A model generated the notes under the pieces. It was not told the DNA's origin, made no database searches, and saw only the letters and a program-made list of their open reading frames with translations. A DNA stretch of 64,000 bases, taken from Chamaelirium japonicum (taxonomy: Eukaryota; Streptophyta; Magnoliopsida; Liliales; Melanthiaceae). Both the position numbers and the translations under genes were made by a program. Below, piece by piece: positions 1 through 64,000 of the stretch (position 1 is its first letter; every line of letters starts with the position of its first letter). The stretch spans positions 23,719,981-23,783,980 of the forward strand of contig OX393552.1 in NCBI GenBank assembly GCA_947650365.1, given 5' to 3'.

Positions 1-397
1 TAAATATAATTTATGGAATAAGGATTCAAATAATTATTTAATTAACTTATAAAATATTTAAATAATTTTATTATTTCTTTATGTTATTAATATTTTTTCA
101 TAGAATAATTCAATTATATAATTATATAATATTTTAATCAAATAATTTAATTATTTAATTATTTTATTATTTACTTAATAATTTAAAGTATAAATTATAT
201 AAATTAATAAGTTTTTTACAATAATAAAATAATTTAATCAATAATTACATAACTAAATTATTATGTAATAAAATTATTATATTATCATTTAAACAAATTA
301 TTAAATAATTATTATGTAATAAAAACTAAGTCTGGAATTATTAAACTATTAAATAATTATTAAATAATTATTAAATTATAAATTATTATGTAATAAA
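1..397. repeat. AT-rich foldback right arm leading to the small array (U1)
   Basis: No gene. This is the right arm of the foldback that follows cassette g; its left half lies outside the window. At about 322-338 a short piece of 65-bp monomer (AACTAAGTCTGGAATTA) interrupts the AT sequence, followed by an AT stretch that repeats the preceding one before the real array starts. The array edge was therefore duplicated together with about 75 bp of AT flank. Confidence 0.7.
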
Positions 398-744
398 AAC
401 TATGTCTGGAATGCACACTCCGAAGCGTGGCGCACCGAAGACCGGCCAAAATTTGCCCGAAAAACTAAGTCAAAAACGCGCACCCCGAAGCATGGTACAT
501 TGAAGTCCGACCAAAATTCGCCCGAAAAACTAAGTCTAGAACGCTCACCCCGAAGCGTGGTGCACCGAAGACCGGCCTTGCTCGAAATACTAAGTTTGGA
601 AGGCGCAGCCCGAAGCGTGGCGCACCAAAGACTGGCCGAAATTCACCCGAAAAACTAAGTCTGGAATGCGACCCCAAAGCGTGGCGCACCGAAGACCGAC
701 CGAAATTCGCTTGAAAAACTCAGTCTGGAACACGCATCCCGAAG
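398..744. repeat. Small 65-bp minisatellite array, U1
   Basis: About 5.3 monomers of a 65-bp GC-rich repeat. Each monomer starts AAACTAAGTCTGG, has GAAGCGTGGCGCACCGAAG in the middle, and ends GAAATTCGCCCGAA. One monomer (near 570-590) is shortened after CCGGCCTTGCTCG; the same short monomer recurs in every small array and near the end of every main array, marking the two as copies of one segment. The array stops within a monomer at CCCGAAG and AT sequence follows. Confidence 0.93.
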
Positions 745-1660
745 CTAAAATTTTAATTTGATAATTATTTCAATAAAGAATTATTTAATAATTTATTTCA
801 ATAATAATCTAATAAGTTTATTATATAATAATTTAGGTATTTAATTATTAATTAAATTATTATATTATTTCAAAAAATTAATAAATAATATAATTTATTC
901 TTAAAATTATTAATTAAATATTTTAAAAATAAAATACTTAAATTTATTTTGTTAAAATATTATATAATTATATAATGGAATTATTTTATTAGAATATAAT
1001 AATAACATAAAGAAATAATAGAATTATTCAAATATTTTATTAAATAATTAAATAATTATTTGAATCATTATTCCATAAATTATAATTAATCCAATAATTT
1101 TATTATTTACTTATTGAATAATTCAATAATGATTATTGAATTATTTTATTATTGAATTATTAAATAAGTAAATAATAATAATATTTAATTAATTATAATT
1201 TATGGAATAATGATTTAAATAATAATTTAATTATTATATAAAATATTTAAATAATTTTATTAATTCTATATTTTATTAATATTTTTTAATAAAATAATTC
1301 AATTATATAATTATATAATATTTTCATCAAATAATTTAAGTATTTTATTACTTCAATATTTAAGTAATAATTTAAAGTATAAATTATATTAATTAATAAT
1401 TTTTTAAAATAATAAAATAATTGAATAAATAATTATATGACTAGATTATTATGTAATAAAATTATTAGATTATCATTAAAATAAATTATTAAATAATTAT
1501 TTATTTATATAACTAAAATATTAGAATTTAATTATTAAGATAATTAAATAAAGAATTATTTAAATAATAATTTTTTGAAATAATTAAATAGTTAGTCAAT
1601 TATTGAAATATTTAAAAATTTAATTAGTGAATAAATATATCAAATAGATTATTTATATAA
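745..1660. repeat. AT foldback between small and main arrays, U1 (centre 1131)
   Basis: No gene. A long imperfect inverted repeat is centred on base 1131 in TTCAATAATGATTATTGAA. The flanks stay complementary far outwards: ATTCCATAAATTATAATTAA on the left is mirrored by TTATAATTTATGGAAT on the right, and TATTATATAATTATATAATG by its complement at about 1300-1320. The left arm reaches back almost to the array edge near 750 and the right arm to about 1510. The block 398-1660 recurs at 4549-5811. Confidence 0.8.
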
Positions 1661-4600
1661 GACCGATCGAAATTAGATTGAAAAACTAAGTCATAAATGC
1701 GCACCCTGAAGCGTGGCGCACCGAAGACCGACCTTAATTCGCACAAAAAACTAAGTCTGGAGTGTGATCCCAGAAGCGTGGCGCACCGAGGACCGGCCAA
1801 AATTCTCCCGAAAAACTAAGTCTGGAATGTGCACCCCAAAGCGTGGCGTACCAAGGACATGCAAAAATTCGCTCGAAAAACTAAGTCTGGAACGAGCACC
1901 CCGAAGCGTGGCGCATCGACGATCGGCCGAAATTCGCCCAAAAAACTAAGTCTGGAACATGCACCCCAAAGCATGGTGCACCGAAAACCGGTCGAAAATT
2001 CGTACGAAAAACGAAGTCTGTAATGCGCACCCCGAAGCGTGGTTCACCAAAGACCGATCGAAATTCATCCAAAAAACTAAGTTAGGAACGCGCACCCTGA
2101 AGAGTGGCACACTAAAGACCTGCCGAAATTCGACAAAAAAACTAAGTCTGGAATGCGCACCCTGAAGCGTAGTGCACCGAAAACCGACCGAAATTCGCTC
2201 GAAAAGCAAACTCTGGAACGTGCACACCGAAGCGTGGCGCACCGAAGACAGATCGAAGTTCACCCAAAAAACTAAGTCTGGAATACGCGTCCTGAAGCGT
2301 GACGCACCGAAGACCATCCAAAATTCGTCAGAAAAACTAAGTCTGCAATGCGCACCCCGAAGCGTGGCACAACGAAGACCGGCCGAAATTTGCCCGAAAT
2401 GATAAGTCTAGAACGCGCACCACGAAGAGTGGCGCACCGAAGAACGACCGAAATTCGCTCGAAAATCTAAGTCTGTAATGCGCATCCCGAAGCATGGTGC
2501 ACCGAAAACTAGCCAAAATTCGGTAAAGAAACAAAGTCTAGAACGCGCACCCCAAAGCGTGGTGTAGCGAAAACCGACCAAAATTCGCACGAAAAACTAA
2601 GTCTGGAACGTGCATGATGAAGCGTGGCGCACCCCAAAGCGTGGCGTACCAAGGACATGCAAAAATTCGCTCGAAAAACTAAGTCTGGAACGAGCACCCC
2701 GAAGCGTGGCGCATCGACGATCGGCCGAAATTCGCCCAAAAAACTAAGTCTGGAACATGCACCCCAAAGCATGGTGCACCGAAAACCGGTCGAAAATTCG
2801 TACGAAAAACTAAGTCTGTAATGCGCACCTCGAAGCGTGGTTCACCAAAGACCGATCGAAATTCATCCAAAAAACTAAGTTAGGAACGCGCACCCTGAAG
2901 AGTGGCACACTAAAGACTTGCCGAAATTCGGCAAAAAAGCTAAGTCTGGAATGCGCACCCTGAAGCGTGGTGCAGCGAAAACCGACCGAAATTCGCTCGA
3001 AAAGCAAACTCTGGAACGTGCACACCAAAGCGTGGCGCACCGAAGACCGGCCGAAGTTCACCCAAAAAACTAAGTCTGGAATACGCATCCTAAAGCGTGG
3101 CGCACCGAAGACCATCCAAAATTCGACAGAAAAACTAAGTCTGCAATGCGCACCCCGAAGCGTGGCACAACGAAGACCGGCCGAAATTTGCCCGAAATGA
3201 TAAGTCCACGAAGAGTGGCGCACCGAAGAACGACCGAAATTCGCTCGAAAATCTAAGTCTGTAATGCGCATCCCGAAGCATGGTGCACCGAAAACTAGCC
3301 AAAATTCGGCAAAGAAACAAAGTCTAGAACGCGCACCCCAAAGCGTGGTGTAGCGAAAACCGACCAAAATTCGCACGAAAAACTAAGTCTGGAACGTGCA
3401 TGATGAAGCGTGGCGCACCGTAGACCGATCAAAATTCTCCCGAAAAACTAAGTCTCGAACACGCACCCCGAAGCGTGGTGCACCGAAGACCGGCCAAAAT
3501 TTATCCAGAAAACTAAGTCTGGAATGTGCACCCCAAAGCATGGCGCACAGAAGACCGGCCAAAATTTGCCCGGAAAACTAAGTCTGGAACGTGCACCCCG
3601 ATGCGTGGCTCACCGAGGACCGACCAAAATTCGTCCGAAAAACTAAGTTAGGAACACGCACCCCAAAGAGTGGTGCACCGAAGACTGGTCGAAATTTACC
3701 CAAAAAACTAAGTCTGGAACGCACACCTCGAAGCATGGCGCACCGAAGACCGACCAAAATTCGATCGAAATACTAAGTCTGGAATGCGCACCCCAAAGCG
3801 TGGCGCACCCAAAACTGGCTGAAATTCACCCGAATAACTAAGTCTGGAATGCACACACCAAAGCATGGCACATCGAAGATCGGCCGAAATTCACTTGAAA
3901 AACTATGTCTGGAATGCACATCCTGAAGCGTGGAGCACCGAAGACCGACCGAAATTTGCCCAAAAAACTAAGTCTAGAGTGCGCACCCCGAAGCATGGCG
4001 CACAGAGGATCGGGCAAAATTCGCCCAAAAAAATAAATCTGGAACGTGCACCCTGAAGTGTGGCGTACCAAGGACCGGCCGAAATTTGGCAGAAAAACTA
4101 AGTCTGGAACTCGCACCCTGAAGCGTGGAGCAGTGAAGACCGATCGAAATTCACCCGAAAAACTAAGTCTTGAATGCGCACGCCAAAGCGTGGTGCACCG
4201 AAGACCGGCAGAAATTTGCCCGAAAAACTTAATCTGGAATGCGCACCCCGAAGCATGGCGCACCGAAGACAAGCCAAAATTCGCCCGAAAAATTAAGTCT
4301 GGAACGCGCACCCCGAAGAGTGCCGGACCGAAGACCGACCGAAATTTACCTGAAAAACTAAGTTTGGAACGTGCACGTCAAAGCATGGCGCACCGAAGAC
4401 CGATCGAAATTCGTGGGGAAAACTAAGTCTGGAACGTGCACCCCGAAGCATGGCGCACCGAAGACTAACCAAAATTCACCCGAAAAACTGAGTCTGGAAT
4501 GCGCACCCCCATGTATGGCGCACCGACGATCAGCCAAAATTTGATCGAAAAACTAAGTCTGGAATGCACACTCCGAAGCGTGGCGCACCGAAGACCGGCC

Positions 4601-4896
4601 AAAATTCGCCCGAAAAACTAAGTCAAAAACGCGCACCCCGAAGCATGGTGCATTGAAGTCCGACCAAAATTCGCCCGAAAAACTAAGTCTAGAACGCGCA
4701 CCCCAAAGCGTGGTGCACCGAAGACGGCCTTGCTCGAAATACTAAGTTTGGAATGCGCAGCCCGAAGCGTGGCGCACCAAAGACTGGCCGAAATTTACCC
4801 GAAAAACTAAGTCTAGAATGCGACCCCAAAGCGTGGCGCACCGAAGACCGGCCGAAATTTGCTTGAAAAACTCAGTCTGGAACACGAATCCCGAAG
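1661..4896. repeat. Main 65-bp minisatellite array, U1
   Basis: About 50 monomers of the 65-bp repeat, with no spacers. Differences between monomers fall mostly at CpG sites changed to TpG or CpA, for example GAAGCGTGG versus GAAGCATGG, GAACGCG versus GAATGCG, TTCGCCC versus TTTGCCC. Because 65 is not a multiple of three, a reading frame passes through all phases of the monomer every 195 bp. This gives open stretches on both strands of up to 188 codons (minus strand 2810-3376); these look like by-products of the repeat, not genes. The last 348 bp match the small array. Confidence 0.95.
1831..3412. repeat. 798-bp tandem duplication inside the U1 main array
   Basis: The segment from GCACCCCAAAGCGTGGCGTA at 1831 recurs at 2629, an offset of 798 bp or about twelve monomers. 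The join is visible at 2612-2640, where a monomer starting with CATGATGAAGCGTGGCGCACC runs into the start of the duplicated block. The second copy has a short loss near 3207 and scattered base changes. U3 and U4 have one copy only, which explains why their main arrays are about 780 bp shorter. Confidence 0.85.
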
Positions 4897-6140
4897 CTAA
4901 AATTTTAATTTTATAATTATTTCAATAAAGAATTATTTAATAATTTATTTCAATAATAATCTAATAAGTTTATTATATAATAATTTAGGTATTTAATTAT
5001 TATTTAAATTATTATATTATTTCAAAAAATTAATAAATAATATAATTTATTCTTAAAATTATTAATTAAATATTTTAAAAATAAAATACTTAAATTTATT
5101 TTGTTAAAATATTATATAATTATATAATGGAATTATTTTATTAGAATATAATAATAACATAAAGAAATAATAGAATTATTCAAATATTTTATTAAATAAT
5201 TAAATAATTATTTGAATCATTATTCCATAAATTATAATTAATCCAATAATTTTATTATTTACTTATTGAATAATTCAATAATGATTATTGAATTATTTTA
5301 TTATTGAATTATTAAATAAGTAAATAATAAAAATATTTAATTAATTATAATTTATGGAATAATGTTTTAAATAATAATTTAATTATTATATAAAATATTT
5401 AAATAATTTTAATATTTCTATATTTTATTAATATTTTTTAATAAAATAATTTAATTATATAATTATATAATATTTTCATCAAATAATTTAAGTATTTTAT
5501 TACTTCAATATTTAAGTAATAATTTAAAGTATAAATTATATTAATTAATAATTTTTTAAAATAATAAAATAAATGAATAAATAATTACGTAACTAAATTA
5601 TTATGTAATAAAATTATTAGATTATCATTAAAATAAATTATTAAAAAATTATTTATTTATATAACTAAAATATTAGAATTTAATTATTAAGAAAATTAAA
5701 TAAAGAATTATTTAAATAATAATTTTTTGAAATAATTAAATAGTTAGTCAATTATTGAAATATTTAAAAATTTAATTAGTGAATAAATATATCAAATAGA
5801 TTATTTATATAATAAAATAAATATTTTCATTATTATATAATTTTATAGTTAAATAAATAATAATTTAAATAAAATATTGTATAATGAAATAAATATAAAA
5901 TTTTATAAAATTATGAGATATTAATTTAAATAACTTAAAAAATAATTATTAAATTCAGTAATTAAATAAAACAATAATTTAATAACTATTACTTATTATT
6001 TAAATAATTAATTAATTATTTGAATATATGGAAAATAAAAATAAAATTTAAATAGCTTAATATTTTTTTTAATAGTCAAAAAAATATTTATTGATTTTTA
6101 TATTTAAATAATAAATAATTAGTTTAAATAATTTAATTAT
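4897..6140. repeat. AT foldback after main array, U1 (centre 5283)
   Basis: No gene. 4549-5811 is a second copy of the small-array end and foldback seen at 398-1660, so the main array is flanked by direct repeats of about 1.26 kb. From 5812 the sequence continues along the right arm of the foldback (TTTTATAGTTAAATAAATAA and onward) up to leader remnant a. Confidence 0.8.
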
Positions 6141-6319
6141 GAAGAAACGAAGGCAGAAGAGAGAGAAGAAGAGATATGATAATGGAGAAATAAACGAGGA
6201 GAGAAGAAATCCTGCTCCAGTCCATTAGCCACAAGTATAGGTTTGAAGTAAGAAGTAATCTAAATTCCAAAACTTCAATTCTCAATAGTATCATCTCAAT
6301 GTTATTATGATTATCATTG
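6141..6319 (+). mobile_element. Leader remnant a, U1 (LTR lost)
   Basis: A GC-richer stretch matching the leader part of the LTR cassettes: purine-rich GAAGGCAGAAGAGAGAGAAG, then TCCTGCTCCAGTCCATTAGCC, TATAGGTTTGAAGTAAGAAG and TCAATAGTATCATCTCAATG. No LTR, TATA box or purine tract lies upstream. The junction with AT-rich arm at 6140 is abrupt. It is a fossil fragment of the same element family. Confidence 0.75.
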
Positions 6320-9300
6320 AAATATTTCTATAATTGTTTTAATAATAGTAAACGTTTATTTAATTATAAAATAATTGAAATAATTGAAATATTTTAATAA
6401 TTAACTTTTTATTAAAATAATAATTTTATTTAATTATCTAGTTATTTAATAGAATTTATTATTTTGTTTATTTATTAATTATTATAATATTAAATAATCA
6501 TATTATGTACCTATTTAATGGTTTAAAATATTTAATAAATAAATAATAATTTAATTATATCATTTAATTTATTTTATTAGTTATTTCTGTAATTATTATG
6601 ATTTTTTAAATTAATTTAACTAATTTAGTAAATAATAAATTGTTAAAATAATAAAATAATTAATTATTTCATATTTTATTATTTAATAAGTAATTAATGA
6701 AAATATTTCATTAATTACCATTAATAAAATAATTATTATAATTTTTATTTAATTATTTTTTGAAATAATTTATTAATTTCATTATTTCTTTAATAAAGTA
6801 ATATAATAATATAATAACTAATTCCTTATTATTTTTTAAAAAATCTATTATTTTAAATTTTTTTTATTATTTCTATATTCATATAATTCACTAATTATTT
6901 AAATAATAAGTAAATAGTTATTGAATTAATATTTTATATTATTACTTAATAAAATAATTAATTTTTTGATATATTTAATTTAATTTTTTATAATTTATTT
7001 AAATAATTTGTTAATTATTTCATTACATTATTATTTAAGTTTATTATTATTTATTTAACTATAAAATTATTTAATAATTAAATTATTTTTTTGTTTAAGT
7101 ACTTAATCTATTTAATATATTTCTTTGCTAAATAAATTATAACATATTTAAATAATTAACTAATTATTTAATTATTTCAAAAAAATATTATTTAAATAAT
7201 TCTTTATATAATTATATAAGTAATGAAATTCTAACTTTATAATTATTTCCATAAATAATTATTCAAAAATTAATTTAAATACTAAAATAATAATCTTATT
7301 ACATAATAATTTAGTTATGTAATTATTAAATAAATTATTTAAATATTTTCAAAAAATATAATTTATTTAAATTATTATTTATTTAACTATAAAATTATTT
7401 AATAATTAAATTATTTTTTTGTTTAAGTAAGTATTCCATTTAATATATTTCTTTACTAATTTTTTTTTAAATATTTAACTAATTAAATAAATATTCACTT
7501 ATTTTGAAAAATTATTATTGAAACTATTCTTTATCTCATTATTTAATTAATGAAATTCTAATTTTATAATTATTTCAATAAATAATTATTTAATAATTTA
7601 TATCAATAGTAATCAAATAATTTTATTACATAATAATTTAGGTATGTAATTATTAATTAAATTATTATATTATTTCAAAAAATTATTAATTAATATAATT
7701 TATTCTTAAAATTATTACATAAATATTTAAAAAATATAATAAATAAATTTATTTTGTTAAAATATTATATAATTATATAATGGAATTATTTTATTAGAAT
7801 ATAATAATAATATAAAGAAATAATTTATTTTCTAAAATAATTAAATTATTATTTGATATCATTATTCCATAAATTATAATTAATCTAATATTTTTATTAT
7901 TTACTTATTGAATAATTCCATAATGATAATTGAATTATTTCATTATTGAATTATTCAATAAGTAAATAATATAGATATTTCATTATTTATAATTTATGGA
8001 ATAATGATTCAAATAATTATTTAATTATTTAATAAAATATTTTAATAATTTCATTATTTCTATATGTTATTTATATTTTATAATAAAATAATTCAATTAC
8101 ACAATTATTTAATATTTTAATAAAATAATTTAAGTATTTTATTATTTAAATAGTGACGTAATAATTTAAAGTATAAATTATATTAATAAATAATTTTTGA
8201 AATTCATAAAATAATTTAATCAATAATTACATAAATAAATTATTATATAATAAAATTTTTAGATTATCTTTTAAATAAATTATTAAATAATTATTTATTT
8301 ATATAACAAAAATATTAGAATTTAGTTATTTAGATAATTAAATATAGAATTATTTAAATAATTAAATATTTATTCAATTATTGAAATATTTAAAAACTTA
8401 ATTAGTGAAGATATATATCAAATAGATTATTTACTTAAAAAAATCAATATTTTTGTTATTAAAAAATTTCATTTTTAAATAAATAATAATTTCATTATAT
8501 AATTAATTTATTATATTAGTTATTTTTTTAATTATTACTATCTTTTCAATTAATTTATTTAGTTCATTAAATAATAAATTAGAGAAATAATAAAATAATT
8601 AATTAATTCATTATTTTATTATTTAATATGTAATTAATGAAAATATTTAATTAATTAACATTAATAAAATAATTTTTATAATTTTTATTTAATTATATTA
8701 GAAAATAATTGATTAATTTAATTATTTATTTCATAAAGTAATAAAATAATATAATAACTAATTATTTATTATTTTCAAAAAATTATATAATTTAAAAAAA
8801 TATGTTATTATTTAAATGTTCAAATAATTAACTAATTATTTAAATTAACTAATTATTTAAATTTTTTTTTTTTTATAATTTAATAAAATAATTTGTGAAT
8901 TATTTCATTACATAATAATTTAATTAAATTATTATTTATTTAACTATAAAATTATTTAATAATTAAATTACTTTTTTGTTTAAGTAAATAATCTATTTAA
9001 TATATTACTTTACTAAATAAGTTTTGAAATATTTAAATAATTGTTTTTAGGGTTATTTTGACTTTGCCCCCCAAGTTTTGCCATAAATTAGACTTTACCC
9101 CCCATATTTTCATTAATTAGACTTTACCCCCCAAAACTAACTGTTCCGTCAGCTCACCATCTAGAGAAAGGTTGAGCTGACGGAAAAGAAATAAAGTTTT
9201 GGGGGGTGAGCTAACGGAACAGTTAGTTTTGGGGGGTAAAGTCTAATTAATGAAAATATGGGGGGTAAAGTCTAATTCAAGGCAAAACTTGGGGGGCAAA

Positions 9301-10241
9301 GTCAAAATAACCCTTGTTTTTATTATTATCTAAATAATGAAATTAGCATTTAATAATTATTTTAATAAAATAATTTTTAAAAAAATTATTTAATTGATAA
9401 TATAATAATTTTATTATATAATAATTTAGTTATATAATTATTTAATAAATTATTTTATTATTTCAAAAAATAACATTTTTTTAAATTATTCTTTTGTTTA
9501 AGTCAATAATCTATTTAATATATTTCTTTACTAAATAAGTTTTTAAATATTTAAATAATTGAATAATTATTCATTTATATAAAAAAATTATTATTGAAAT
9601 AATTATTTATATATTTATCTACTTAATAAAACTCTAATTTTTACAATTATTTCAATAAATTATTATTTAATATTTTATTTAAATAATAATCTAATTATTT
9701 TATTACATAATAATTTAGTTATGTAATTATTAATGAAATTATTTTATTATTTCAAAAAATTATTAATTAATATAATTTATTCTTTGAATTATTAATAAAA
9801 TATTTAAAAAATAAAATAGGTAAATTTGTTTACTTAAATAATTTTATAGTTAAATAAATAATAATTTAAATAAAATATTATATAATGAAATAAATAAAAA
9901 TATTTATTAAATTATGAGATATTAATTTAAATAACAAAAAAAAAATTTATTTAATTAAGTAATAAAATAAGACAATAATTTAATAACTATTTACTTATTA
10001 TTAAAATAATTTGTTAATTATTTGAATATATGAATAATAAAATATTTTTTTAAATAGCTTAATACTTTTATTAATAATTAAAGAAATATTTATTGATTTT
10101 AATATTTAAATAATAAATAATTAGTTTAAATAATTTAATTATATAGATAATTAAATATTTCTTTAATTATTTAATTTATTTAACTATTTAATTTATTAAA
10201 CTAATTAAATTAATTAAATAAAAGGAAGTAAAGTAGGAAGA
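6320..10241. repeat. Long AT region with two foldback modules, U1 (centre 7925)
   Basis: No gene. The first module is a left arm, a centre at 7925 (CCATAATGATAATTGAATT) and a right arm to about 8500; arms of roughly 500 bp or more are visible, and inside the left arm a block of about 328 bp is repeated in tandem (GTTTAAGTA at 7093 and 7421). Near 8500 the right arm switches to left-arm sequence again, and near 9835 that left arm joins right-arm sequence directly, so the second module has lost its centre. The MITE sits at 9050-9313. The region ends with a purine tract just before the LTR of cassette b. Confidence 0.72.
9050..9313. mobile_element. Foldback MITE, Mutator-like, private to U1
   Basis: A 264-bp palindromic element. 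Left arm 9050-9158 and right arm 9205-9313 are near-perfect inverted repeats of 109 bp around a 46-bp loop; ends are GGGTTATTTTGACTTTG and its complement. It is flanked by a 9-bp direct repeat TTGTTTTTA (9041-9049 and 9314-9322). The same place in U2 (about 18001), U3 (about 36902) and U4 (about 55717) reads TTCTCTTTA or TTCTTTTTA once, with no insertion. The 9-bp target duplication fits MULE-derived MITEs. The G/C-run arms (AGACTTTACCCCCC repeated) make it very different from its AT surroundings. It carries no transposase. Confidence 0.92.
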
Positions 10242-10637
10242 TGAGGCACACCCGAATTTTTTGCTTTAAAAAAATTTATATTTTTCTTTTAAAAAATTTA
10301 AAACATTACAACTGTTATGAGATCGTTCGATCGGATGACTGTTCACCGTCAGATCTCTCACATAGATTTGGGTTTCCTAAATAATACTTAGGCCCTAAGT
10401 AAACTTACCCTAAAAATAATATACAACCCCTTTAGGGTGGGGCATGTTTGACGGCTCTCTCTTTCTCCCATCTCACAATATGTTATCAACACGAATATAT
10501 CAAGCCGAGCCAATCCGTGGCAAGAAAACGGAGAGAGAAACAAAGACAGAAGAGGGAGAGGAAGAGAGATGAGAATAGAGAAATAAACGAATAGAGAAGA
10601 AGTCCTGCCCCAGTCCATTGGCCACGGGTATAGGTTT
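10242..10637 (+). mobile_element. LTR-leader cassette b, U1
   Basis: Probable LTR of a Ty1/copia-like, non-autonomous element, with its leader. Seen: purine-rich tract GGAAGTAAAGTAGGAAGA up to 10241; a 234-bp segment 10242-10475 starting TGAGGCAC and ending TCTCA, so the ends form TGAG...CTCA; inside it a telo-like GGGTTT, palindrome TACTTAGGCCCTAAGTA at 10385, a TATA-like CTAAAAATAA, and a GGGTGGGG run. GTTATCAACACGA follows about 7 bases later, then a purine-rich leader ending at GGTATAGGTTT (10637). The motif after the LTR resembles one I recall next to 5' LTRs of some plant copia elements; it is not the usual TGG-type primer site. A host promoter plus 5' leader is the alternative reading. 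No coding domain is present. Confidence 0.6.
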
Positions 10638-11092
10638 AATTTATTTCTTTACTAAATAAGTTTTTAAATATTTAAATAATTAAATAATTATTTATTTACT
10701 AAAAAAATATTATTTAAATAATTCTTTATATAATTATCTAATTAATAAAATTCTTATTTTAAAATTATTTCAAAACATAATTTTTTAATAATTTATTTAA
10801 ATCATAATATAATAATTTTATTATATAATAATTTAGTTATAAAATTATTAATGAAATTATTTTATAATTTAAAAAAATTATTAATTTATATAATTTATTC
10901 TTTAAATTATTACTTAAATATTTAAAAAATAAAATATTTTAATTTATTTTGTTAAATATCATATAATTATATAATGGAATTTTATTATTATAAAATAATA
11001 ATAATAAAAAGATATAATTAAATTATTCAAATATTTTCTAAAATAATTAAATAATTATTTGAAAAAAATATATAGGAAGTAAAGAAGGAAGA
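10638..11092. repeat. Truncated AT foldback arm and junction to cassette f, U1
   Basis: No gene. The left arm after cassette b matches 19266-19655 of U2 up to AATTATTTGAA near 11064, then jumps to the AGGAAGTAAAGAAGGAAGA tract before cassette f, which in U2 lies at about 26436. About 6.8 kb holding the foldback centre and cassettes c, d and e is therefore absent from U1. Confidence 0.8.
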
Positions 11093-12752: not shown

Positions 12753-13185
12753 TGAGGCATACTCGAATTTTTTGCTTTAAAAAAACTTATATTTTTCTGT
12801 AAAAAAGTTTAAAACATTACAACTGTTATGAGATCGTTCGATCGGATGATTGTTCACCGTCGGATCTCTCCCATAGATTAGGATTTCCCATATAATACTT
12901 AGGCCCTTAGTAAGCTTAACCTATAAATAATATACGACCCCTTTAGGGTGGGGTACGTTTGACGGCTCTCTCTTTCTCTCATCTCACAATATGTTATCAA
13001 CACGAATATATCGAGCCCAGCTAATCCGTCGCAAGAAAACGAATAGAGAAACGAAGACAGAAGAGAGAGAAGAAGAGAGATGAGAATGAAAAAATAAATG
13101 AAGAGAGAAAAAATCCTGCCCCAGTCCATTGGCCACGGGTATAGGTTTGAAATAAGAAGTAATCTAAATTTCAAAACTCCACTTT
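12753..13185 (+). mobile_element. LTR-leader cassette g, U1
   Basis: LTR-like 12753-12986 (234 bp), TATA box CTATAAATAATATA, ATATGTTATCAACACGA and leader. Unlike f, the leader stops at AAAACTCCACTTTTTATTAG and goes straight into the inner part of a foldback left arm (GAATGTAAACATAACATAAA), so the outer arm is missing. All g cassettes share this junction, so it predates unit amplification. Confidence 0.6.
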
Positions 13186-52954: not shown

Positions 52955-53133
52955 GAAGAAACGAAGGCAGAAGAGAGAGAAGAAGATATATGATAATGGA
53001 GAAATAAACGAGGAGAGAAGAAATCCTGCTCCAGTCCATTAGCCACAAGTATAGGTTTGAAGTAAGAAGTAATCTAAATTCCAAAACTTCACTTCTCAAT
53101 AGTATCATCTCAACGTTATTATGATTATCATTG
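52955..53133 (+). mobile_element. Leader remnant a, U4
   Basis: About 179 bp of leader without LTR, as in U1 and U3. Confidence 0.75.
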
Positions 53134-56100
53134 AAATATTTCTATAATTATTTTAATAATAGTAAACATTTATTTAATTATAAAATAATTGAAATATTTT
53201 AATAATTAACTTTTTATTAAAATAATAATTTTATTTAATTATCTAGTTATTTAATAGAATTTATTATTTTATTTATTTATTAATTATTATAATATTAAAT
53301 AATCATATTATGTACCTATTTAATGGTTTAAAATATTAAATAAAGAAGTAATAATTTAATTATATAGTTTAATTTATTTTATTAGTTATTTATTTAATTA
53401 TTATTATTTTTTAAATTAATTTAACTAATTTATTAAATAATAAATTGTTAAAATAATAAAATAATTAATTATTTCATATTTTATTATTTAATAAGTAATT
53501 AATGAAAATATTTCATTAATTACCATTAATGAAATAATTATTATAATTTTTATTTAATTATTTTATGAAATAATTTATTAATTTCATTATTTCTTTAATA
53601 AAGTAATATAATAATATAATAACTAATTCCTTATTATTTTTTAAAAAATCTATTATTTAAAAAAATATTTTATTATTTCTATATTCACATAATTCACTAA
53701 TTATTTATATAATAAGTAAATAGTTATTGAATTAATATTTTATATTATTATTTAATAAAATAATTAATTTTTTGATATATTTAATTTAATTTTTTATAAT
53801 TTATTTAAATAATTTGTTAATTATTATTTATTTAACTATAAAATTATTTAATAATTAAATTATTTTTTTGTTTAAGTACTTAATCTATTTAATATATTTC
53901 TTTGCTAAATAAATTATAACATATTTAAATAATTAACTAATTATTTAATTATTTCAAAAAAATATTATTTAAATAATTCTTTATATAATTATCTAAGTAA
54001 TGAAATTCTAACTTTATAATTATTTCCTTAAATAATTATTCAAAAACTAATTTAAATAATAAAATAATAATCTTATTACATAATAATTTAGTTATGTAAT
54101 TATTAAATAAATTATTTTAATATTTTCAAAAAATATAATTTATTTAAATTATTATTTATTTAACTATGAAATTATTTAATAATTAAATTATTTTTTTGTT
54201 TAAGTAAGTATTCCATTTAATATATTTCTTTACTAAAATGTTTTTAAATATTTAACTAATTAAATAAATATTCACTTATTTTGAAAAATTATTATTGAAA
54301 CTATTCTTTATATCATTATTTAATTAATGAAATCCTAATTTTATAATTATTTCAATAAATAATTATTTAATAATTTATATCAATAGTAATCTAATAATTT
54401 TATTACATAATAATTTAGGTATGTAATTATTAATTAAATTATTATATTATTTCAAAAAATTATTAATTAATATAATTTATTCTTAAAATTATTACATAAA
54501 TATTTAAAAAATATAATACATAAATTTATTTTGTTAAAATATTATATAATTATATAATGGAATTATTTTATTAGAATATAATAATAATATAAAGAAATAA
54601 TTTATTTTCTAAAATAATTAAATTATTATTTGATATCATTATTCCATATATTATAATTAATATAATATTTTTATTATTTACTTATTGAATAATTCGATAA
54701 TGATAATTGAATTATTTCATTATTGAATTATTCAATAAGTAAATAATATAGATATTTCATTATTTATAATTTATGGAATAATGATTCAAATAATTATTTA
54801 ATTATTTAATAAAATATTTTAATAATTCCATTATTTCTTAATGTTATTTATATTTTATATTAAAATAATTCAATTATACAATTATTTAATATTTTAATAA
54901 AATAATTTAAGTATTTTATTATTTAAATAGTGATGAAATAATTTAAAGTATAAATTATATTAATAAATAATTTTTGAAATTCATAAAATAATTTAATCAA
55001 TAATTACAAAAATAAATTATTATATAATACAATTTTTAGATTATCATTTAAATAAATTATTAAATAATTATTTATTTATATAACTAAAATATTATAATTT
55101 AGTTATTTAGATAATTAAATATAGAATTATTTAAATAATTAAATATTTTTTCAATTATTGAGATATTTAAAAACTTAATTAGTGAAGATATATATCAAAT
55201 AGATTATTTACTTAAAAAAATCAATATTTTTATTATTAAAAAATTTCATTTTTAAATAAATAATAATTTCATTATATAATTAATTTATTATATTAGTTAT
55301 TTTTTTAATTATTACTATCTTTTTAATTAATTTAATTAGTTTATTAAATAATAAATTAGAGAATTAATAAAATAATTAATTAATTCATTATTTTATTATT
55401 TAATATGTAATTAATGAAAATATTTAATTAATTACCATTAATAAAATAATTTTTATAATTTTTATTTAATTATATTATAAAATATTTGATTAATTTAATT
55501 ATTTATTTCATAAAGTAATAAAATAATATAATAACTAATTATTTATAATTTATAATTTAATAAAATAATTTGTGAATTATTTCATTACATAATAATTTAA
55601 TTAAATTATTATTTATTTAACTATAAAATTATTTAATAATTAAATTATTTTTTTGTTCAAGTAAATAATTTATTTAATATATTACTTTACTAAATAAGTT
55701 TTGAAATATTTAAATAATTCTCTTTATAATTATCTAAATAATGAAATTAGCATTTAATAATTATTTTAATAAAATAATTTGTAAAAAATTTATTTAATTG
55801 ATAATATAATAATTTTATTATATAATAATTTAGTTATGTAATTATTAAATAAATTATTTTATTATTTGAAAAAATAATATTTTTTTAAATTATTCTTTTG
55901 CTTAAGTAAATAATCCATTTAATATATTTCTTTACTAAATAAGTTTTTAAATATTTAAATAATTGAATAATTATTCATTTATATAAAAAAATTATTATTG
56001 AAATAATTATTTATATAGTTATCTACTTAATAAAACTCTAATTTTACAGTTATTTCAATAAATTATTATTTAATATTTTATTTAAATAATAATCTAATAA

Positions 56101-56586
56101 TTTTATTACATAATAATTTAGTTATGTAATTATTAATGAAATTATTTTATTATTTCAAAAAATTATTAATTAATATAATTTAATCTTTGAATTATTAATG
56201 AAATATTTAAAAAATAAAATAGTTAAATTTGTTTACTTAAATAATTTTATAGTTAAATAAATAATAATTTAAATAAAATATTATATAATGAAATAAATAA
56301 AAAAATTTATTAAATTATGAGATATTAATTTAAATAACAAAAAAAAATTTATTTAATTAAGTAATAAAATAAGAAAATAATTTAATAACTATTTACTTAT
56401 TATTCAGATAATTAGTTAATTATTTGAATATATGAATAATAAAATATTTTTTTAAATAGCTTAATACTTTTATTAATAATTAAAGAAATATTTATTGATT
56501 TTAATATTTAATTATTTAATTTATTTAACTATTTAATTTATTAAACTAATTAAATTAATTAAATAAAAGGAAGTAAAGAAGGAAGA
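53134..56586. repeat. Long AT region with two foldback modules, U4 (centre 54702)
   Basis: No gene. Same plan as U1-U3; MITE target near 55717 is empty. Small private losses near 53190 and 53820. Confidence 0.72.
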
Positions 56587-56982
56587 TGAGGCACACCCGA
56601 ATTTTTTGCTTTAAAAAAATTTATATTTTTCTTTTAAAAAATTTAAAACATTACAACTGTTATGTGATCGTTCGATCGGATGACTATTCACCGTCAGATC
56701 TCTCACATAGATTTGGGTTTCCTAAATAATACTTAGGCCCTAAGTAAACTTACCCTAAAAATAATATACAACCCCTTTAGGGTGGGGCATGTTTGACGGC
56801 TCTCTCTTTCTCCCATCTCACAATATGTTATCAACACGAATATATCAAGCCGAGCCAATCCGTGGCAAGAAAACGGAAAGAGAAATAAAGACAGAAGAGG
56901 GAGAAGAAGAGAGATGAGAATGGAGAAATAAACGAATAGAGAAGAAGTCCTGCCCCAGTCCATTGGCCATGGGTATAGGTTT
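56587..56982 (+). mobile_element. LTR-leader cassette b, U4
   Basis: LTR-like 56587-56820 (234 bp) and short leader. Confidence 0.6.
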
Positions 56983-57742
56983 AATTTATTTCTTTACTAA
57001 ATAAGTTTTTAAATATTTAAATAATTAAATAATTATTTATATAATTATCTAATTAATAAAATTCTAATTTTAAAATTATTTCAAGACATAGATTTTTAAT
57101 AATTTATTTAAATCATAATATAATAATTTTATTATATAATAATTTAGTTATATAATTATTATTGAAATTAATTTATAATTTAAAAAAATTATTAATTTAT
57201 ATAATTTATTCTTTAAATTATTACTTAAATATTTAAAAAATAAAATATTTTAATTTATTTTGTTAAAATATTATATAATTATATAATGGAATTATATTAT
57301 TATAATATAATAATAATAAAAAGATATAATTAAATTATTTAAATATTTTCAAAAATAATTAAATAATTATTTGAATCATCATTACATAAATTATAATTAA
57401 TCAAATATTTGTATTATTTACTTATTGAATAATTCAATAATAATTATTGAATTATTTAATTATTGAATTATATAATAAGTAAATAATTAAAATATTTAAT
57501 TAACTATAATTTATAGATAATTAAATATTAGTTAAAAAATTTAATTAACTATAATTTATAATAATAAAAAATTAACTATAATTTAATTAACTATAATTTA
57601 TAATAATAAAAAATTAGTTAAAAAATTTTAATTATATAGATAATTAAATATTTCATTAATTATTTAATTTATTAATTTATTGAACTATTTAATTTTTTAG
57701 AATAATGAAATTAATTAAATAATATGAAGTAAAGAAGTAAGA
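56983..57742. repeat. AT foldback and short tandem repeats, U4 (centre 57442)
   Basis: No gene. As U2; the local TTAACTATAATTTATAATAA repeat lies at about 57495-57630. Confidence 0.7.
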
Positions 57743-58040
57743 TGAGGCACACCCGAATTTTTTGCTTTAAAAAATTTAAATTTTTCTTTAAAAAAATTTA
57801 AAACATTACAACTGTTATGAGATCGTTCGATTGGATGACTGTCCACTGTCGGAAGAAAACGAAGAGAGAAATAAAGGCAGAAGAGAGAGAAGATTAGATA
57901 TGAGAATGGAAAAATAAACGAAGAGAGAAGAAATCATGCTCCAGTCCATTAGCCATGGATATACGTTTGAAGTAAAAAGTAATCTAAATTCCAAAACGCC
58001 ACTTCTCAATAGTATCATCTTAACGTTATTATGATTATCA
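57743..58040 (+). mobile_element. Truncated LTR-leader cassette c, U4
   Basis: LTR start 57743-57853 joined to leader, same join as U2 and U3. Confidence 0.68.
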
Positions 58041-58502
58041 TTGAAATATTTCTATAATTTTTTTAATAATAGTAATTATTTATTTAATTATAAAATATTT
58101 TAAATAATAGAAATATTTTAATAATTAACTTTTTACTAAAATAATATTTTTATTTAATTATTTAATTATCTAGTTATTTAATGAAATTAATTATTTTATT
58201 TATTTAATAATTATTATATTATTAAATAATTAAATTATGTACCTATTTAATGGTTTAAAATATTAAATAAAGAAATAATGATTTAATTATATAATTAATT
58301 TATTTTATTAGTTATTAATTTTATTATTATTATTTTTTAAATTAATTTAATTAATTCATGAAATAATAAAATGCTGAAATAATAAAATAATTAGTTTAAA
58401 TAATTAAATATTTCTTTAATTATTTAATTATTTAATTTATTTCATTATTTAATTTAATAAACTAATTAAATTAATTAAATAATAGGAAGTAAAAAAGGAA
58501 GA
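58041..58502. repeat. Collapsed AT module between c and d, U4
   Basis: No gene. Centreless AT stretch as in U2 and U3. Confidence 0.7.
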
Positions 58503-58978
58503 TGAGGCACACCCAAATTTTTTGCTTTAAAAAAATTTATTTTTTTCTTTTTAAAAAATTTAAAATATTATAACTGTTATGAGATCGTTCGATCGGATGA
58601 TTGTCCACCGTCGGATCCCTCCCTTAGATTAGGGTTTCCCATATAATACTTAGGCCATAAGTAAGCTTACCCTATAAATAATATACGACCCCTTTAGGGT
58701 GGGGCACGTTTGACGGCTCTCTTTTTCCCATCTCATAATATGTTATTAACACGAACATATCGAGCCCAATCGACCCGTCGTAAGAAAACAGAGAGAACAA
58801 CGAAGACAAAAGAGAGAGAAGAAGAGAGATGAGAATGGTGAAATAAACAAAGAGGGAAGAAGTCCTGCTCCAGTCCATTGGCCATGGGTATAGGTTTGAA
58901 GTAAGAAGTAATCTAAATTCCAAAAATCCACTTCTCAATAGTATCATCTCAACGTTACTATGATTATCATTGTAATAT
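58503..58978 (+). mobile_element. LTR-leader cassette d, U4
   Basis: LTR-like 58503-58735 (233 bp), telo-box and TATA box present, full leader. Confidence 0.62.
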
Positions 58979-61204
58979 TTCTATAATTTTTTAAATAATA
59001 GTAATCATTTAATTATTTGATTATCTAGTTATTTATTGAAATTTGTTATTTTATTTATTTATTAATTATTATATTATTAAATAATTAAATTATGTAACTA
59101 TTTAATGGTTTAAAATATTAAATAAAGTAATAATGATTTAATTATATAATTAATTTATTTTATTAGTTATTTCTTTAATTATTATTATTTTTTCAATTAA
59201 TTTTATTAATTTATTAAATAATAAATTGTTGAAATAATTATTGAATTAATTTTTTATTTAATTAACTAATAAAATAATTAATTTTTGAATGTAATTTATT
59301 TAATTTTTTATAATTTAATAAAATAATTTTTTAATTATTCTGTTACATAATAATTTATTTAAACTATTATTTATTTAACTTTTAAATTATTTAATAATAA
59401 TTTTTTTTTGTTTAAGTAAATAATCAATTTAATATATTTTATTACTAAATAAGTTTTTAAATATTTAAACTATAGACTAATTATTTAATTAGTTAAAAAA
59501 ATTATAATTTAAATAATTCTTTATATAATTATCTAAATAATGAAATTATAATTTTATAATTATTTTAATAAATAATTATTCAAAAATTTATTGAAATGTT
59601 AATATAATAATTTAATTACATATTAATTTAGTTATATAATTATTGATTAAATTATTTTATATTTCAAAAAATTATAATTTAATTAAATTAAGATTTATTG
59701 AACTATGGAATAATTGAATAATTAAATTATTTTTTTGTTTCAGTAAATAATCAATTTAATATATTTACTAACTAAATAAGTTTTTAATTATTTAAATAAT
59801 TAAATAATTATTTACTTATTTCAAAAAATTATTATTTAAATAGTTCTTTGTATAATTATCTAATTATTGAAATTCTAATTTTATAATTTTTTGAAAAAAT
59901 AATTATTTAATAATTTATTAAAATAATAATATTTTAATTTTTTTATATAATAATTTAGTTATGTAGTAATTAAATAAATGATTTTATTATTTCAAAAAAT
60001 TATTAATTAATATAATTTATTTTTTTAGTGATTATTTAAATATTTAATAAATAAAATACTTAAATATATTTTTTAAAAATATTGTATAATTATATAATGG
60101 AATTATTTTATTAGAATATAAACATAACATAAAGAAATAATTGAATTATTCAAATATTTTATAAAATTATTAAATAATTTTTTGAATCATTATTCCATAA
60201 ATTATAATTAATCAAATATTTTTATTATCTACTTATTGAATAATTCAATAATGATTATTGAATTATTTTATTATTGAATTATTCAATAAGTAAATAATAA
60301 AAATATTTAATTAAATATAACTTATGGAATAAGGATTCAAATAATTATTTAATTAACTTATAAAATATTTAAATAATTTTATTATTTCTTTATGTTATTA
60401 ATATTTTTTCATAGAATAATTCAATTATATAATTATATAATATTTTAATCAAATAATTTAATAATTTAATTATTTTATTATTTACTTATTAATTTAAAGT
60501 ATAAATTATATAAATTAATAAGGTTTTTTGAATAATAAAATAATTTAATCAATAATTACATAACTAAATTATTATGGAATAAAATTATTATATTATCATT
60601 TAAAAAAATTATAAAATAATTATTTATTTATATAACTAAAATATTAGAGTTTAATTATTTAGATAATTAAATAAATATTATTTAAATAAATTTTTTTTAA
60701 ATAATTAAATCATTAGTCAATTATTGAAATATTTAAAAACTTAATTAGTGAAGAAATATATCAAATAGATTATTTACTTAAAAAAATATATTTTTATTAT
60801 TAAATAATTTCATTTGTTAGATAAATAATAATTTAAATAAAATATTGTATAATGAAATAAATATAAAATTTTATTAAATTATGGGATATTAATTGAAATA
60901 ACTAAAAAAAATAATTATTTAATTAAATAATAAAATAAAACAATAATTTAATAACTATTTACGTATTATTTGAATAATTAGTTAATTATTTGAATATATA
61001 AATATTAAAATATTTTTTTAAATAGTTTAATATTTTTTTTAATAATCAAAGAAATATTTATTGATTTTAATATTTAATTAATAAATAATTTCATTATATA
61101 AATAATTAAATATTTCTTTAATTATTTAATTATATAATTTTTTTAACTATTTAATTTATTAAACTAATTAAATTAATTAAATAATAGAAAGTAAAGATGG
61201 AAGA
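58979..61204. repeat. AT foldback between d and e, U4 (centre 60253)
   Basis: No gene. As U2 and U3. Confidence 0.74.
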
Positions 61205-61676
61205 TGAGGCAAACCCAAATTTTTTTCTTTAAAAAAATATATTTTTCTTTAAAAAAATTTAAAATATTATAACTGTTATAGGATCATTCGATCGGATGAC
61301 TGTCCACCGTCGGATCCCTCTCTTAGATTAGGGTTTCCCATATAATACTAAGGCCCTAAGTAAGCTTACCCTATAAATAATATACGACTCCTTTAGGGTG
61401 GGGTATGTTTGACGGCTCTCTCATTCTCCCATCTCATAATATGTTATTAATACGAACTTATCGAGCCCAGTCGACCCGTCGCAAGAAAGCGGAGAGAGAA
61501 ACGAAGACAAAAGAGACAGAAGAAGAAAGATGAGAATGAAGAAATAAATGAAGAGAGAAAAAGTCATGCTCCAATCCATTGGCCATAGGTCTGAAGTAAG
61601 AAGTAATCTAAATTCCAAATCTCCACTTCTTAATAGTATTATCTCAACGTTATTATGATTATCATTGCAATATTTC
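61205..61676 (+). mobile_element. LTR-leader cassette e, U4
   Basis: LTR-like 61205-61436 (232 bp), e-type start TGAGGCAAACCC, leader to about 61676. Confidence 0.62.
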
Positions 61677-64000
61677 TATAATTTTTTTAATAATAGTAAT
61701 CGTTTATTTAATTATAAAATAAATTAACTAATTGAAATTTTTTAATATTTAACTTTTTATTAAAATAATAATTTTATTTAATTATTTAATTATCTAGTTA
61801 TTTAATGAAATTTATTATATATTTCATTTATTAATTATTATATTATTAAATAATTAAAATATTTAACTATTTAATGGTTTAAAATATGAAATAAAGAAAT
61901 AATGATTTTATTATATAATTAATTTATTTTATTATTTATTTCTTTACTTATTATTATTTTTTAAAAGTATTTTATTAATTAATTAAATAATAAATATTTA
62001 AAATAATAAAATAATTAATTATTTTATTATTCAATAAGTAATTAATGAAAATATTTAATTAATTATGTTTAATGAAATAATTATTAATTATTAATTATAA
62101 ATTATAAATTTTATTATTTTATAAAATATTTTATTAATTTAATTATTTATTAAATAAAGTAATAAAATAATATATTAATATAATAAATGATTATTTATTA
62201 TTTTAAAAAATAGATTATTTTAAAAAATATTTTATTATTTATATGATTAAATAATTAACTAATTATTTAAATAATAAGTAAATAGTTATTGAATTAATTT
62301 TTTATGTTATTACTTCATGAAATAATTGATTTTTTGATGTAATTTATTTAATTTTTTATAATTTAATTAAATAATTTGTTATTTACTTCATTAGATAATA
62401 ATTTATTTAAATTTTTATTTATTTAACCATAAAATTAATTAATAATTAAATTATTTCTTATTTAAGTAAATAATCTATTTAATATATTTCTTTATAAAAT
62501 TAGTTTTTCAATATTTAAATAATAGACTAATCTATTTAACTAAATTTTTTAAAATAATTTATTTATATATCAAATAGATTATTTACTTAAAAAATAAATA
62601 TTTTTATTATTAAATAATTTCATAGGTAAATAAAAAATAAATTACAAAAAATATTTTATAATTAAATAAATATAAAATTTTATTAAATTATGAGATATTA
62701 ATTAAAATAACTGAAAAAAATAATTATTCAATTAAGTAATAAAATAAAACAATAATTTAATAATAATTTACTTATAATTTAAATAGATAGTTAATTATTT
62801 GAATATATAAATAATAAAATATTTTTTAAAAAAGCTTAATATTTTTTTTTATAATCAAATAAATAGTTATATAACTATTAATAATTTTAAAATTAATTTA
62901 GTTATAGAATTATTAATTAATTTAGTTAGATAATTACTTATTTGAAAAAATTATTATTTAAACAATTCTTTATATCATTATTTAATTAGAAAAAAATTAA
63001 TTTGATAATTATTTCAATAAAGAATTATTTAATAAATTATTTCAATAATAATTTAATAAGTTTATTATATTATAATTTAGTTATGTAATTATTAATTAAA
63101 TTATTGTATTATTTTAAAAAATTAATATATAATATAATTTATTCTTAAAATTATTAATTAAATATTTTAAAAATAAAATACATAAATTTATTTTGTTAAA
63201 ATATTATATAATTATATAATGGAATTATTTTATTAGAATATAATAATAATATAAAGAAATAATAAAATTATTCAAATATTTTCTAAAATAATTAAATATT
63301 ATTTGATATCATTATTCTATAAATTATAATTAATCTAATATTTTAATTATTTACTTATGGAATAATTCAATAATGACAATTGAATTGTTTCATTATTGAA
63401 TTATTCAATAACTAAATCATAAAAATATTTAATTAATTATAATTTATGGAATAATGATTCAAATAAATATTTAATAATTTTGAAAAATATTTAAATAATT
63501 TCATTATTTCTTTATGTTATTAATATTTTATAATAAAATAATTCATTTATATAATTATATAATATTTTAATCAAATAATTAAAGTATTTTATTATTTAAA
63601 TATTAACTTAATAATATAAAGTATAAATTATATTAATAAATAATTTTTGAAATTAATAAAATAATTTAATCAATAATTATATAACTAAATTATTATATAA
63701 TAAAATTAGTGAAAATATATAGATTATTTACTTAAAAAAATTAATATGTTTATTATTAAATAATATCATAGTTAAATAATTAATAATTTAAATAAATTAT
63801 TATATAATTTATTTAATATAAAATATTATGAAATTATAAGATATTAATTGAAATAACTAAAAATAATATTTATTTAATTAAGTAATCAAATAAAATAATA
63901 ATGTAATATATATTTATTTATTATTTAAATAATTAGTTAATATTTGAAATATATGAATATGAAAATATTTCTTCAGTTAGATTTATAATTTTTTAATAAT
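61677..64000. repeat. Two AT foldbacks after e, U4 (second centre 63375), cut by window end
   Basis: No gene. Collapsed foldback near 62560, then one centred on 63375. By comparison with U3 the next cassette (f) should begin about 170 bp after the window end. Confidence 0.7.

Follow-up and report, generated by a model that had tools for sequence, protein, structure and literature searches.

Does the DNA of this window, by which we mean the whole 64,000-nucleotide stretch analysed, form a true higher-order satellite, and from which sequences did so long a unit arise? The preliminary description had divided it into four direct units starting at 1, 13390, 28760 and 47618, and all of these starts were reproduced by our analysis. 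The register of about 18,858 bp claimed for the third and fourth units was likewise confirmed, their lengths being 18,858 and 18,859 bp. The units are as follows.

1-13389, + strand: unit 1, 13,389 bp; both 65-bp blocks; MITE-like insertion; without three cassettes of unit 3
13390-28759, + strand: unit 2, 15,370 bp; single short 65-bp block; without the ~3.37-kb segment holding the large 65-bp block
28760-47617, + strand: unit 3, 18,858 bp; reference unit U
47618-64000, + strand: unit 4, 16,383 of its 18,859 bp, the rest lying beyond the window up to 66,476

In the window, 89.6% of 21-mer positions are recurrent, compared with 0.01-0.06% in five dinucleotide shuffles made in 1-kb blocks, and the top self-repeat offset is 18,858. 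The window sits within a direct-repeat array on contig C4 (the assembly, marked as that of a land plant by 28 chlorophyll a/b-binding matches, has 12 large contigs of 69.9-137.3 Mb). Followed by a junction marker, this array spans ~454 kb, from about C4:23,636,895 to an assembly gap (a run of N) at 24,091,237; 260 kb were read as sequence, and the last ~243 kb were followed by junction markers alone. All 53 junctions on C4 lie on the + strand, giving a head-to-tail tandem order, and 22 of them belong to the G type, a marker of units bearing both 65-bp blocks.

The period is not constant, 18,858 or 18,859 bp being the length of two of the four window units. Among the 21 G-type spacings on C4, six consecutive ones measure 18,700-18,870 bp, while the others range from 14,353 to 25,922 bp, apart from two of 28,749 bp that equal unit 1 plus unit 2, or copies of these, with a marker-less unit lying between. 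Compared with unit 3, identity is 98.97% for the whole of unit 4, 99.989% for the unit at 85187, 96.4% over 17 kb for the unit at 66477 (from which three 65-bp monomers are missing), 97.0% for the main segment of unit 1, and 98.3% and 97.9% for two left-edge segments. An edge-to-core gradient of divergence from unit 3 was sought across the units, and no clean one was found.

Two kinds of sequence make up each unit. One is a GC-rich 65-bp minisatellite, present in the following blocks.

395-745, + strand: short block, unit 1
1659-4897, + strand: large block, unit 1, 46 extracted monomers
13784-14134, + strand: short block, unit 2
29144-29494, + strand: short block, unit 3 (U 385-735)
30407-32861, + strand: large block, unit 3, 37 extracted monomers
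48002-48352, + strand: short block, unit 4, approximate, placed by offset from unit 3
49257-51711, + strand: large block, unit 4, 37 extracted monomers, collinear with those of unit 3

The other is an AT-rich, partly palindromic satellite that carries GC-richer cassettes of ~0.55 kb.

6143-6397, + strand: cassette, truncated, unit 1
10216-10788, + strand: cassette, class 1, GC-richer, unit 1
11060-11640, + strand: cassette, class 3, unit 1, copy used as query
12723-13300, + strand: cassette, class 2, unit 1
15368-15502, + strand: cassette, truncated (135 bp), unit 2
18844-19414, + strand: cassette, class 1, unit 2
19996-20404, + strand: cassette, internal deletion, unit 2
20760-21332, + strand: cassette, class 5, unit 2
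23463-24029, + strand: cassette, class 4, unit 2
26429-27002, + strand: cassette, class 3, unit 2
28093-28670, + strand: cassette, class 2, unit 2
34107-34361, + strand: cassette, truncated, unit 3
37748-38333, + strand: cassette, class 1, unit 3
38859-39263, + strand: cassette, internal deletion, unit 3
39619-40190, + strand: cassette, class 5, unit 3
42321-42887, + strand: cassette, class 4, unit 3
45287-45860, + strand: cassette, class 3, unit 3
46951-47528, + strand: cassette, class 2, unit 3
52957-53207, + strand: cassette, truncated, unit 4
56561-57145, + strand: cassette, class 1, unit 4
57717-58121, + strand: cassette, internal deletion, unit 4
58477-59048, + strand: cassette, class 5, unit 4
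61179-61745, + strand: cassette, class 4, unit 4

Both components are homogenised by position. The 54 full-length cassettes in the 260 kb fall into five position classes, with class means of 98.2-99.6% identity within and 79-90% between classes. They thus group by position and not by unit, in agreement with the earlier observation that same-place cassettes are nearly identical while those within one unit diverge. Between units, the 65-bp monomers correspond in collinear order at 98-100%, against a mean of 77.2% inside unit 3; for all 37 monomers of unit 3, the order of the best matches is preserved in the units starting at 47618, 85187 and 104045 (99.5-100%). With this position-specific homogenisation, and with an array that continues beyond the window, the claim of a higher-order satellite holds: the array is a true higher-order repeat of the minisatellite fused to the AT-rich satellite. 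At CpG sites the 65-bp monomers carry C>T/G>A changes at a frequency of 0.205 in unit 3 and 0.208 in the left flank, compared with 0.106 and 0.110 at other C/G positions; to judge from these frequencies, the twofold excess would be as in methylated DNA.

Eight imperfect palindromes of at least 400 bp and at least 75% were found in the window, compared with none in three shuffled windows.

748-1529, no strand: AT-rich imperfect palindrome, 85.9%
4900-5681, no strand: AT-rich imperfect palindrome, 85.4%
14137-14918, no strand: AT-rich imperfect palindrome, 86.6%
29497-30277, no strand: AT-rich imperfect palindrome, 85.6%
32864-33645, no strand: AT-rich imperfect palindrome, 86.1%
48354-49127, no strand: AT-rich imperfect palindrome, 82.6%
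51714-52495, no strand: AT-rich imperfect palindrome, 86.1%
62802-63969, no strand: AT-rich imperfect palindrome, 76.2%, not adjoining a 65-bp block

The copy at 29497-30277 has a predicted single-stranded DNA fold of -192.4 kcal/mol, whereas 20 shuffled versions average -88.25 (z -32). The array may be self-amplifying, because seven of the eight palindromes (~780 bp each) begin 2-3 bp past the end of a 65-bp block: as built-in breakage sites, they would break at their feet, capture the adjoining minisatellite and make the junction a new higher-order repeat. This idea is speculative, and we hold it to be improbable. The minisatellite adjoining the AT-rich family is the 65-bp one on C4 and on the unplaced contig C63, and a 23-bp one on the unplaced contig C48. 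Among four loci outside C4, palindromes of at least 250 bp and at least 75% were detected in one (L041; 470 bp, 78%) and in none of L032, L035 and L036; L035 is the C48 locus, where no higher-order repeat was shown, and its lack of a detected palindrome runs contrary to palindrome breakage.

The edges and irregularities of the array bear on how it grew. The composite array starts where a stretch of at least 52 kb, consisting mostly of 65-bp repeats, ends, and the junction from 65-bp to AT-rich sequence at this left edge differs by a single base, across the letters compared, from the one inside unit 1. A duplication with an offset of 9,070 (97.7%) is present at the left edge. Several units have also been duplicated together: in a block at offset 47,051, 22 of 41,119 positions differ (99.95% identity), and at offset ~56,430 there are 79 mismatches along a block of 52 kb (99.8%). 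A segment of 3,366-3,368 bp is absent from unit 2, and the resulting junction spacing is seen again, consecutively, towards the right end of the array. A single clean crossover between two 1.27-kb direct repeats was considered as the source of unit 2 and is unsupported by the diagnostic sites, at which the unit 2 copy of that repeat is a mosaic resembling the second copy of unit 1; unit 2 may instead represent an older state. By eye, the deletion joint in unit 1 has little homology, and junction microhomologies are about 4 bp, which means little because the DNA is A-rich.

Unit 1 carries a further feature.

9050-9313, no strand: MITE-like inverted-repeat insertion, TTGTTTTTA flanking both ends; within the window, in unit 1 only

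Its two ends match inversely, forming terminal inverted repeats, and TTGTTTTTA at both flanks is a 9-bp target duplication, since units lacking the insertion have a single site, TTCTCTTTA or TTCTTTTTA. We take a duplication of this length to point to Mutator, and with both features the insertion qualifies as a putative Mutator-type MITE. The 260 kb contain it three times, with offsets of 29,414 and 47,051, a pattern that a single insertion copied together with its unit would produce.

The preliminary description had called the modules retroelement-like, which the analysis did not bear out: a Pfam scan of 10 of the 18 open frames of unit 3 matched no family, an Rfam scan of the window gave no match, and for the cassettes LTR or other element ends, a target duplication, a primer site and a coding body were not demonstrated. 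The cassettes could nevertheless be LTR-retrotransposon pieces, either solo LTRs or an LTR with leader, from which the satellite started, as in maize CRM1TR/CRM4TR and human MaLR arrays. By eye a cassette looks promoter-like, with a TATA-like motif and a purine-rich leader, and such satellite origins are documented in the available parts of PMC3648361, PMC7004042 and PMC2588610. An LTR-only piece would leave no coding domain. The scored genome matches (the best 40 of 8,163 candidates) all lie on C4 and the unplaced contigs C48, C63 and C223, and a parent element may lie elsewhere among the candidates; we regard this origin as a possibility worth keeping, although not the one we favour. A tandem gene amplicon was rejected on the lack of Pfam families in the 10 frames scanned, of Rfam families and of tRNAs, and an rDNA origin on the lack of an Rfam match in the window.

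Higher-order arrays are common at centromeres, and the uniform strand of the C4 junctions would suit a CENH3-binding array on C4, serving as functional centromere or core pericentromere and maintained through kinetochore selection. In several taxa, centromeric sequences are also reported to have an excess of dyad symmetries, according to the available part of PMC13081366. Against this, the fusion of 65-bp and AT-rich sequence was found only on C4 and the three unplaced contigs, and its components are dispersed. The 65-bp minisatellite and the AT-rich satellite each occur genome-wide, with matches near chromosome ends among those listed. Among the matches listed, the cassette motif also lies on C4 at 1.83, 2.29, 93.49 and 93.82 of 94.9 Mb, on C3 at 0.46, 1.05 and 96.09 of 100.1 Mb, on C6 at 14.66 and 45.5-47.1 of 88.3 Mb, and on C7 at 41.3 and 79.9-82.7 of 85.9 Mb, while the 65-bp motif spans 13.8 to 122.9 Mb on C1; both distributions are partial, and single matches need not be arrays. 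Several places per chromosome, some of them only 0.46-2.29 Mb from a chromosome end among the matches listed, argue against a centromere-only repeat, and we consider a centromeric role unlikely. The unplaced contigs bear on two further explanations. The same fusion lies on C48, C63 and C223 in both orientations, which would suit amplification through extrachromosomal circles, rolling-circle copying and reinsertion in place of unequal exchange, a route that would yield similar arrays; the duplications of several units and the uneven lengths of units are in keeping with local exchange without being decisive, and we judge the circular route rather unlikely. Contigs joined or duplicated during assembly, such as two haplotypes placed in tandem, might create some or all apparent units, given the near-identical blocks at the two large offsets, the run of N that terminates the C4 array, and the related array on C63, which might belong to the other haplotype or fill a missing part. 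However, no N occurs within the 260 kb read, the units also differ by length and point changes, and the higher-order signal rests on units 1-4% apart, not on near-identical blocks alone. On C63, moreover, the modules follow the composite order along 4.1 kb (97.6%), and a spacing of 17,914 bp particular to that contig recurs; an artefact of this kind seems very improbable.

Collectively, these findings make it likely that a junction between two satellites was amplified by recombination into a composite higher-order array of non-coding appearance in plant heterochromatin, presumably without a product. A 65-bp minisatellite array is bordered on its right by the AT-rich satellite, which carries the ~0.55-kb cassettes and, beside the 65-bp blocks, the ~0.8-kb palindromes. 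A segment spanning this junction may then have been tandemly duplicated, with the ~9-kb step remaining at the left edge, and have grown to units of ~19 kb. Unequal exchange, or an equivalent break repair, would have multiplied these units and kept them homogeneous, several being copied at once, with the palindromes probably supplying the breaks. The array thereby records its own history, in the parent-minisatellite edge, the ~9-kb edge duplication, the insertion copied with its unit and the recent multi-unit duplications. It is a good natural record of satellite birth at the junction of two older satellites, and the palindromes beside the 65-bp blocks offer a testable cause for breaks.

Comparison with known systems draws on the available parts of the cited papers. 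Maize CRM1TR/CRM4TR are likewise plant tandem repeats with locus-specific variants, for which the authors propose intrastrand deletions at the start and gene conversion for growth; they derive, however, from known centromeric retrotransposons, and no minisatellite composite is described in that part of the source (PMC3648361). In Lathyrus sativus, satellites from the Ogre 3'UTR resemble the present case in that short tandem arrays expand in particular chromosome regions, but the part available describes no composite ~19-kb unit (PMC7004042). CUS-TR24 of Cuscuta europaea similarly belongs to a heterochromatin mosaic of satellite, simple repeats and insertions, but its arrays are short and often interrupted, and no homogenised higher-order unit is described in the part available (PMC8091179). 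Tribolium satellites share a dyad of several hundred base pairs predicted as one hairpin (~300-bp inverted segments in TmSat2 and ~470-bp segments in the 1061-bp monomer of T. brevicornis); in these beetles the dyad makes up most of the monomer, whereas here it is one module of a larger unit (PMC13081366). The preliminary description knew of no account of this unit, and none was found for the plant repeat in the literature searched, but the higher-order form has a human precedent, the MaLR 'LTR arrays' megasatellite, a higher-order repeat of six ~3.5-kb monomers (about 21 kb) in which one inserted element marks each higher-order unit and missing monomers are put down to unequal crossing over (PMC2588610). 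Its monomers are identified LTR retrotransposon pieces (PMC2588610), whereas the unit described here joins a 65-bp minisatellite to an AT-rich palindromic satellite and to cassettes of possible LTR origin. The human LTR-array megasatellites are a close precedent, and the present array is a clean, unusually long case of known recombination-driven satellite growth.

The preliminary description held that a higher-order repeat fills the whole window, and this was borne out: 89.6% of 21-mer positions were repeated, compared with 0.01-0.06% in five shuffles of the window made in 1-kb blocks. The unit starts (1, 13390, 28760, and 47618) were reproduced, giving lengths of 13,389, 15,370, 18,858, and 18,859 bp, and the most frequent repeat offset was 18,858 bp. 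Three further units to the right measured 18,710, 18,858, and 18,860 bp. The 54 full-length cassettes, a set that excludes truncated or internally deleted copies, fell into five classes by position. Mean identity was 98.2-99.6% within a class, where no pair fell below 96.2%, and 79-90% from one class to another. All 37 monomers of the large 65-bp block of unit 3, the reference unit, were matched in order in three other units at 99.5-100%; the unit at 66477 held 34 large-block monomers, 98.2% identical to those of unit 3, and unit 1 held 46, at 98.7%. Compared with one another, the 65-bp monomers inside unit 3 had a mean identity of 77.2%, and the adjoining 65-bp array matched unit monomers at only 85-86%. 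Such position-specific identity of cassettes and monomers, near-complete across units and divergent between positions, is the defining signature of a higher-order repeat; the first observation and its reading as a higher-order satellite are correct.

The composite array starts at about -83,085 in window coordinates and continues rightward; the 52 kb read before that point was mostly 65-bp array of ~50% GC. Besides the window, 196 kb of flanking DNA was read. Contig C4 (OX393552.1), on which the window occupies 23,719,981-23,783,980, was read unbroken to 23,843,980 and then at 24,087,374-24,091,373, the array in between being known from its junctions alone, and the array meets at least 137 N at 24,091,237. 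The pattern of the 65-bp/AT junction, where the 65-bp block meets the AT-rich satellite, had 94 matches in the 1.52-Gb assembly, whose chlorophyll a/b-binding genes are the mark of a land plant, at up to 3 mismatches (reversed control, 0), distributed over C4 (53) and the unplaced contigs C63 (31), C223 (8), and C48 (2). The C4 junctions were all on the + strand, spanning 23,639,341-24,087,373, and 22 of the 53 were of the G type, seen in units having both 65-bp blocks. G-type spacings on C4 (n = 21) were 14,353-25,922 bp, plus 28,749 bp twice, the latter representing units 1 and 2 together (unit 2 lacks the G-type marker) or copies of that pair. Six successive spacings were 18,700-18,870 bp. 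The proposed 18.9-kb unit therefore stands as the core period, but not as a constant length.

Two stretches breaking the left 65-bp array (loci L011-L012), one from roughly -114,000 to -104,000 and the other close to -98,000, had almost no 21-mer in common with the window and a GC content of 0.40-0.50, and are probable insertions. The same array contains a further feature:

C4:23583981-23590280 and 23596227-23602526 (approximate; loci L009-L010), second large duplication in the left 65-bp array, about 6 kb present twice, 12,246 bp apart, the copies showing 7-21 mismatches in each kb and containing no AT-rich DNA

The left edge of the composite array carries a duplication at an offset of 9,070 (97.7%). 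The 65-bp-to-AT junction at this edge differed from that of unit 1 by one base over the letters compared, which suggests that the repeat unit was probably cut from the left edge. Recent copying took in multi-unit blocks, one at an offset of 47,051 with 22 differences in 41,119 positions, mostly toward the right end, and one of 52 kb at an offset of ~56,430 (99.8%; 79 mismatches). The MITE-like insertion of unit 1 (window 9050-9313) was present at three sites within 260 kb, and a 400-base query around it gave three full-length matches, those same sites, among the best 40 of 2,479 candidates. Relatives of its palindrome, at 90-98% identity, occurred on all of the large contigs C1-C12 among these best 40. 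Unit 2 lacks a segment of ~3,367 bp; the junction spacing that belongs to this segment is repeated several times in succession toward the right end of the array. A single crossover was considered as the origin of this loss; the diagnostic sites do not show one. The two left-edge segments were 98.3% and 97.9% identical to unit 3, the main segments of units 1 and 2 were 97.0% and 99.1% identical, and the unit at 66477 was 96.4% identical; for the remaining units on the right side the figure was 98.9-99.99%, and no clean edge-to-core gradient of divergence from unit 3 was found.

The window contained eight imperfect AT-rich palindromes (at least 400 bp and 75%), compared with none in three shuffled windows. 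Seven were 774-782 bp at 82.6-86.6% and began 2-3 bp past a 65-bp block (the short block of unit 4 was placed by offset); the other was 1,168 bp at 76.2%. Folded as single-stranded DNA, one palindrome reached -192.4 kcal/mol, compared with -88.25 (sd, 3.22) for 20 shuffles. Long palindromes are fragile, and those of the array are therefore likely break sites. One of four loci checked outside C4 had a palindrome, of 470 bp at 78%; the other three had none of at least 250 bp.

Both families extend beyond C4. The 39-base cassette motif occurred 8,563 times in the genome at up to 3 mismatches (control, 0); the matches listed lay on C1, C2, C3, C4, C6, C7, and C10, interstitially and also 0.46-2.29 Mb from the ends of C2, C3, and C4. 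A 65-bp motif occurred 2,041 times at up to 3 mismatches, with the 100 places listed falling on C1-C5, C7-C12, and small contigs. In the 65-bp monomers, transitions were twice as frequent at CpG sites as at other C/G, in keeping with methylated DNA. Fusion of the 65-bp and AT families was found only on C4, C63, C223, and C48. The 4.1 kb read from C63 was 97.6% identical to unit 3 with the order of parts unchanged, and a junction spacing of 17,914 bp was found there three times. At C223:256606-260927 (L032-L034), cassette matches lay exactly 1,903 bp apart, each step holding two cassettes, by eye from the GC profile, somewhat like unit 1. At C48:1091099-1094614 (L035 2192-3516), the AT-rich satellite adjoins another minisatellite (23-bp unit, 55.9 copies), a junction of like kind with a different partner. 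C202:292060-418081 (L041), where motif spacings repeat at 12,303-12,312 and 17,374-17,381 bp, is a further array of long period, and 4 kb of it that was read matched the AT family and had no 65-bp period.

The modules had also been called retroelement-like. In favor of this, the cassette layout, by eye, has a TATA-like motif followed by a purine-rich leader; against it, no Pfam family was found at E <= 1 in 10 scanned of the 18 open frames of unit 3 (at least 50 aa, outside the 65-bp blocks). A retroelement origin of the cassette is possible but unproven. Because the layout resembles that of plant housekeeping promoters, the cassette may, instead of an LTR, be the captured start of a gene. Searches of the window for Rfam families and for tRNAs found none. 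Cassettes on the + strand, including window 11060-11640, looked promoter-like by eye, with TTAGGGTTT and AGGCCC lying close to a TATAAATA motif and the purine-rich leader next.

A centromere role for the array is a candidate at most; the C4 composite array is of interest mainly as a legible record of satellite birth. In keeping with the statement that the unit had no known description, no account of the plant unit was found in the open-licence literature searched (weak evidence), but a human precedent exists. Long dyads within satellite monomers are described in Tribolium (PMC13081366). The nearest precedent found for the Chamaelirium japonicum array is the human MaLR LTR array, which consists of higher-order repeats of six ~3.5-kb monomers, with one inserted LTR6A as marker, remodeled by unequal crossing over (PMC2588610).
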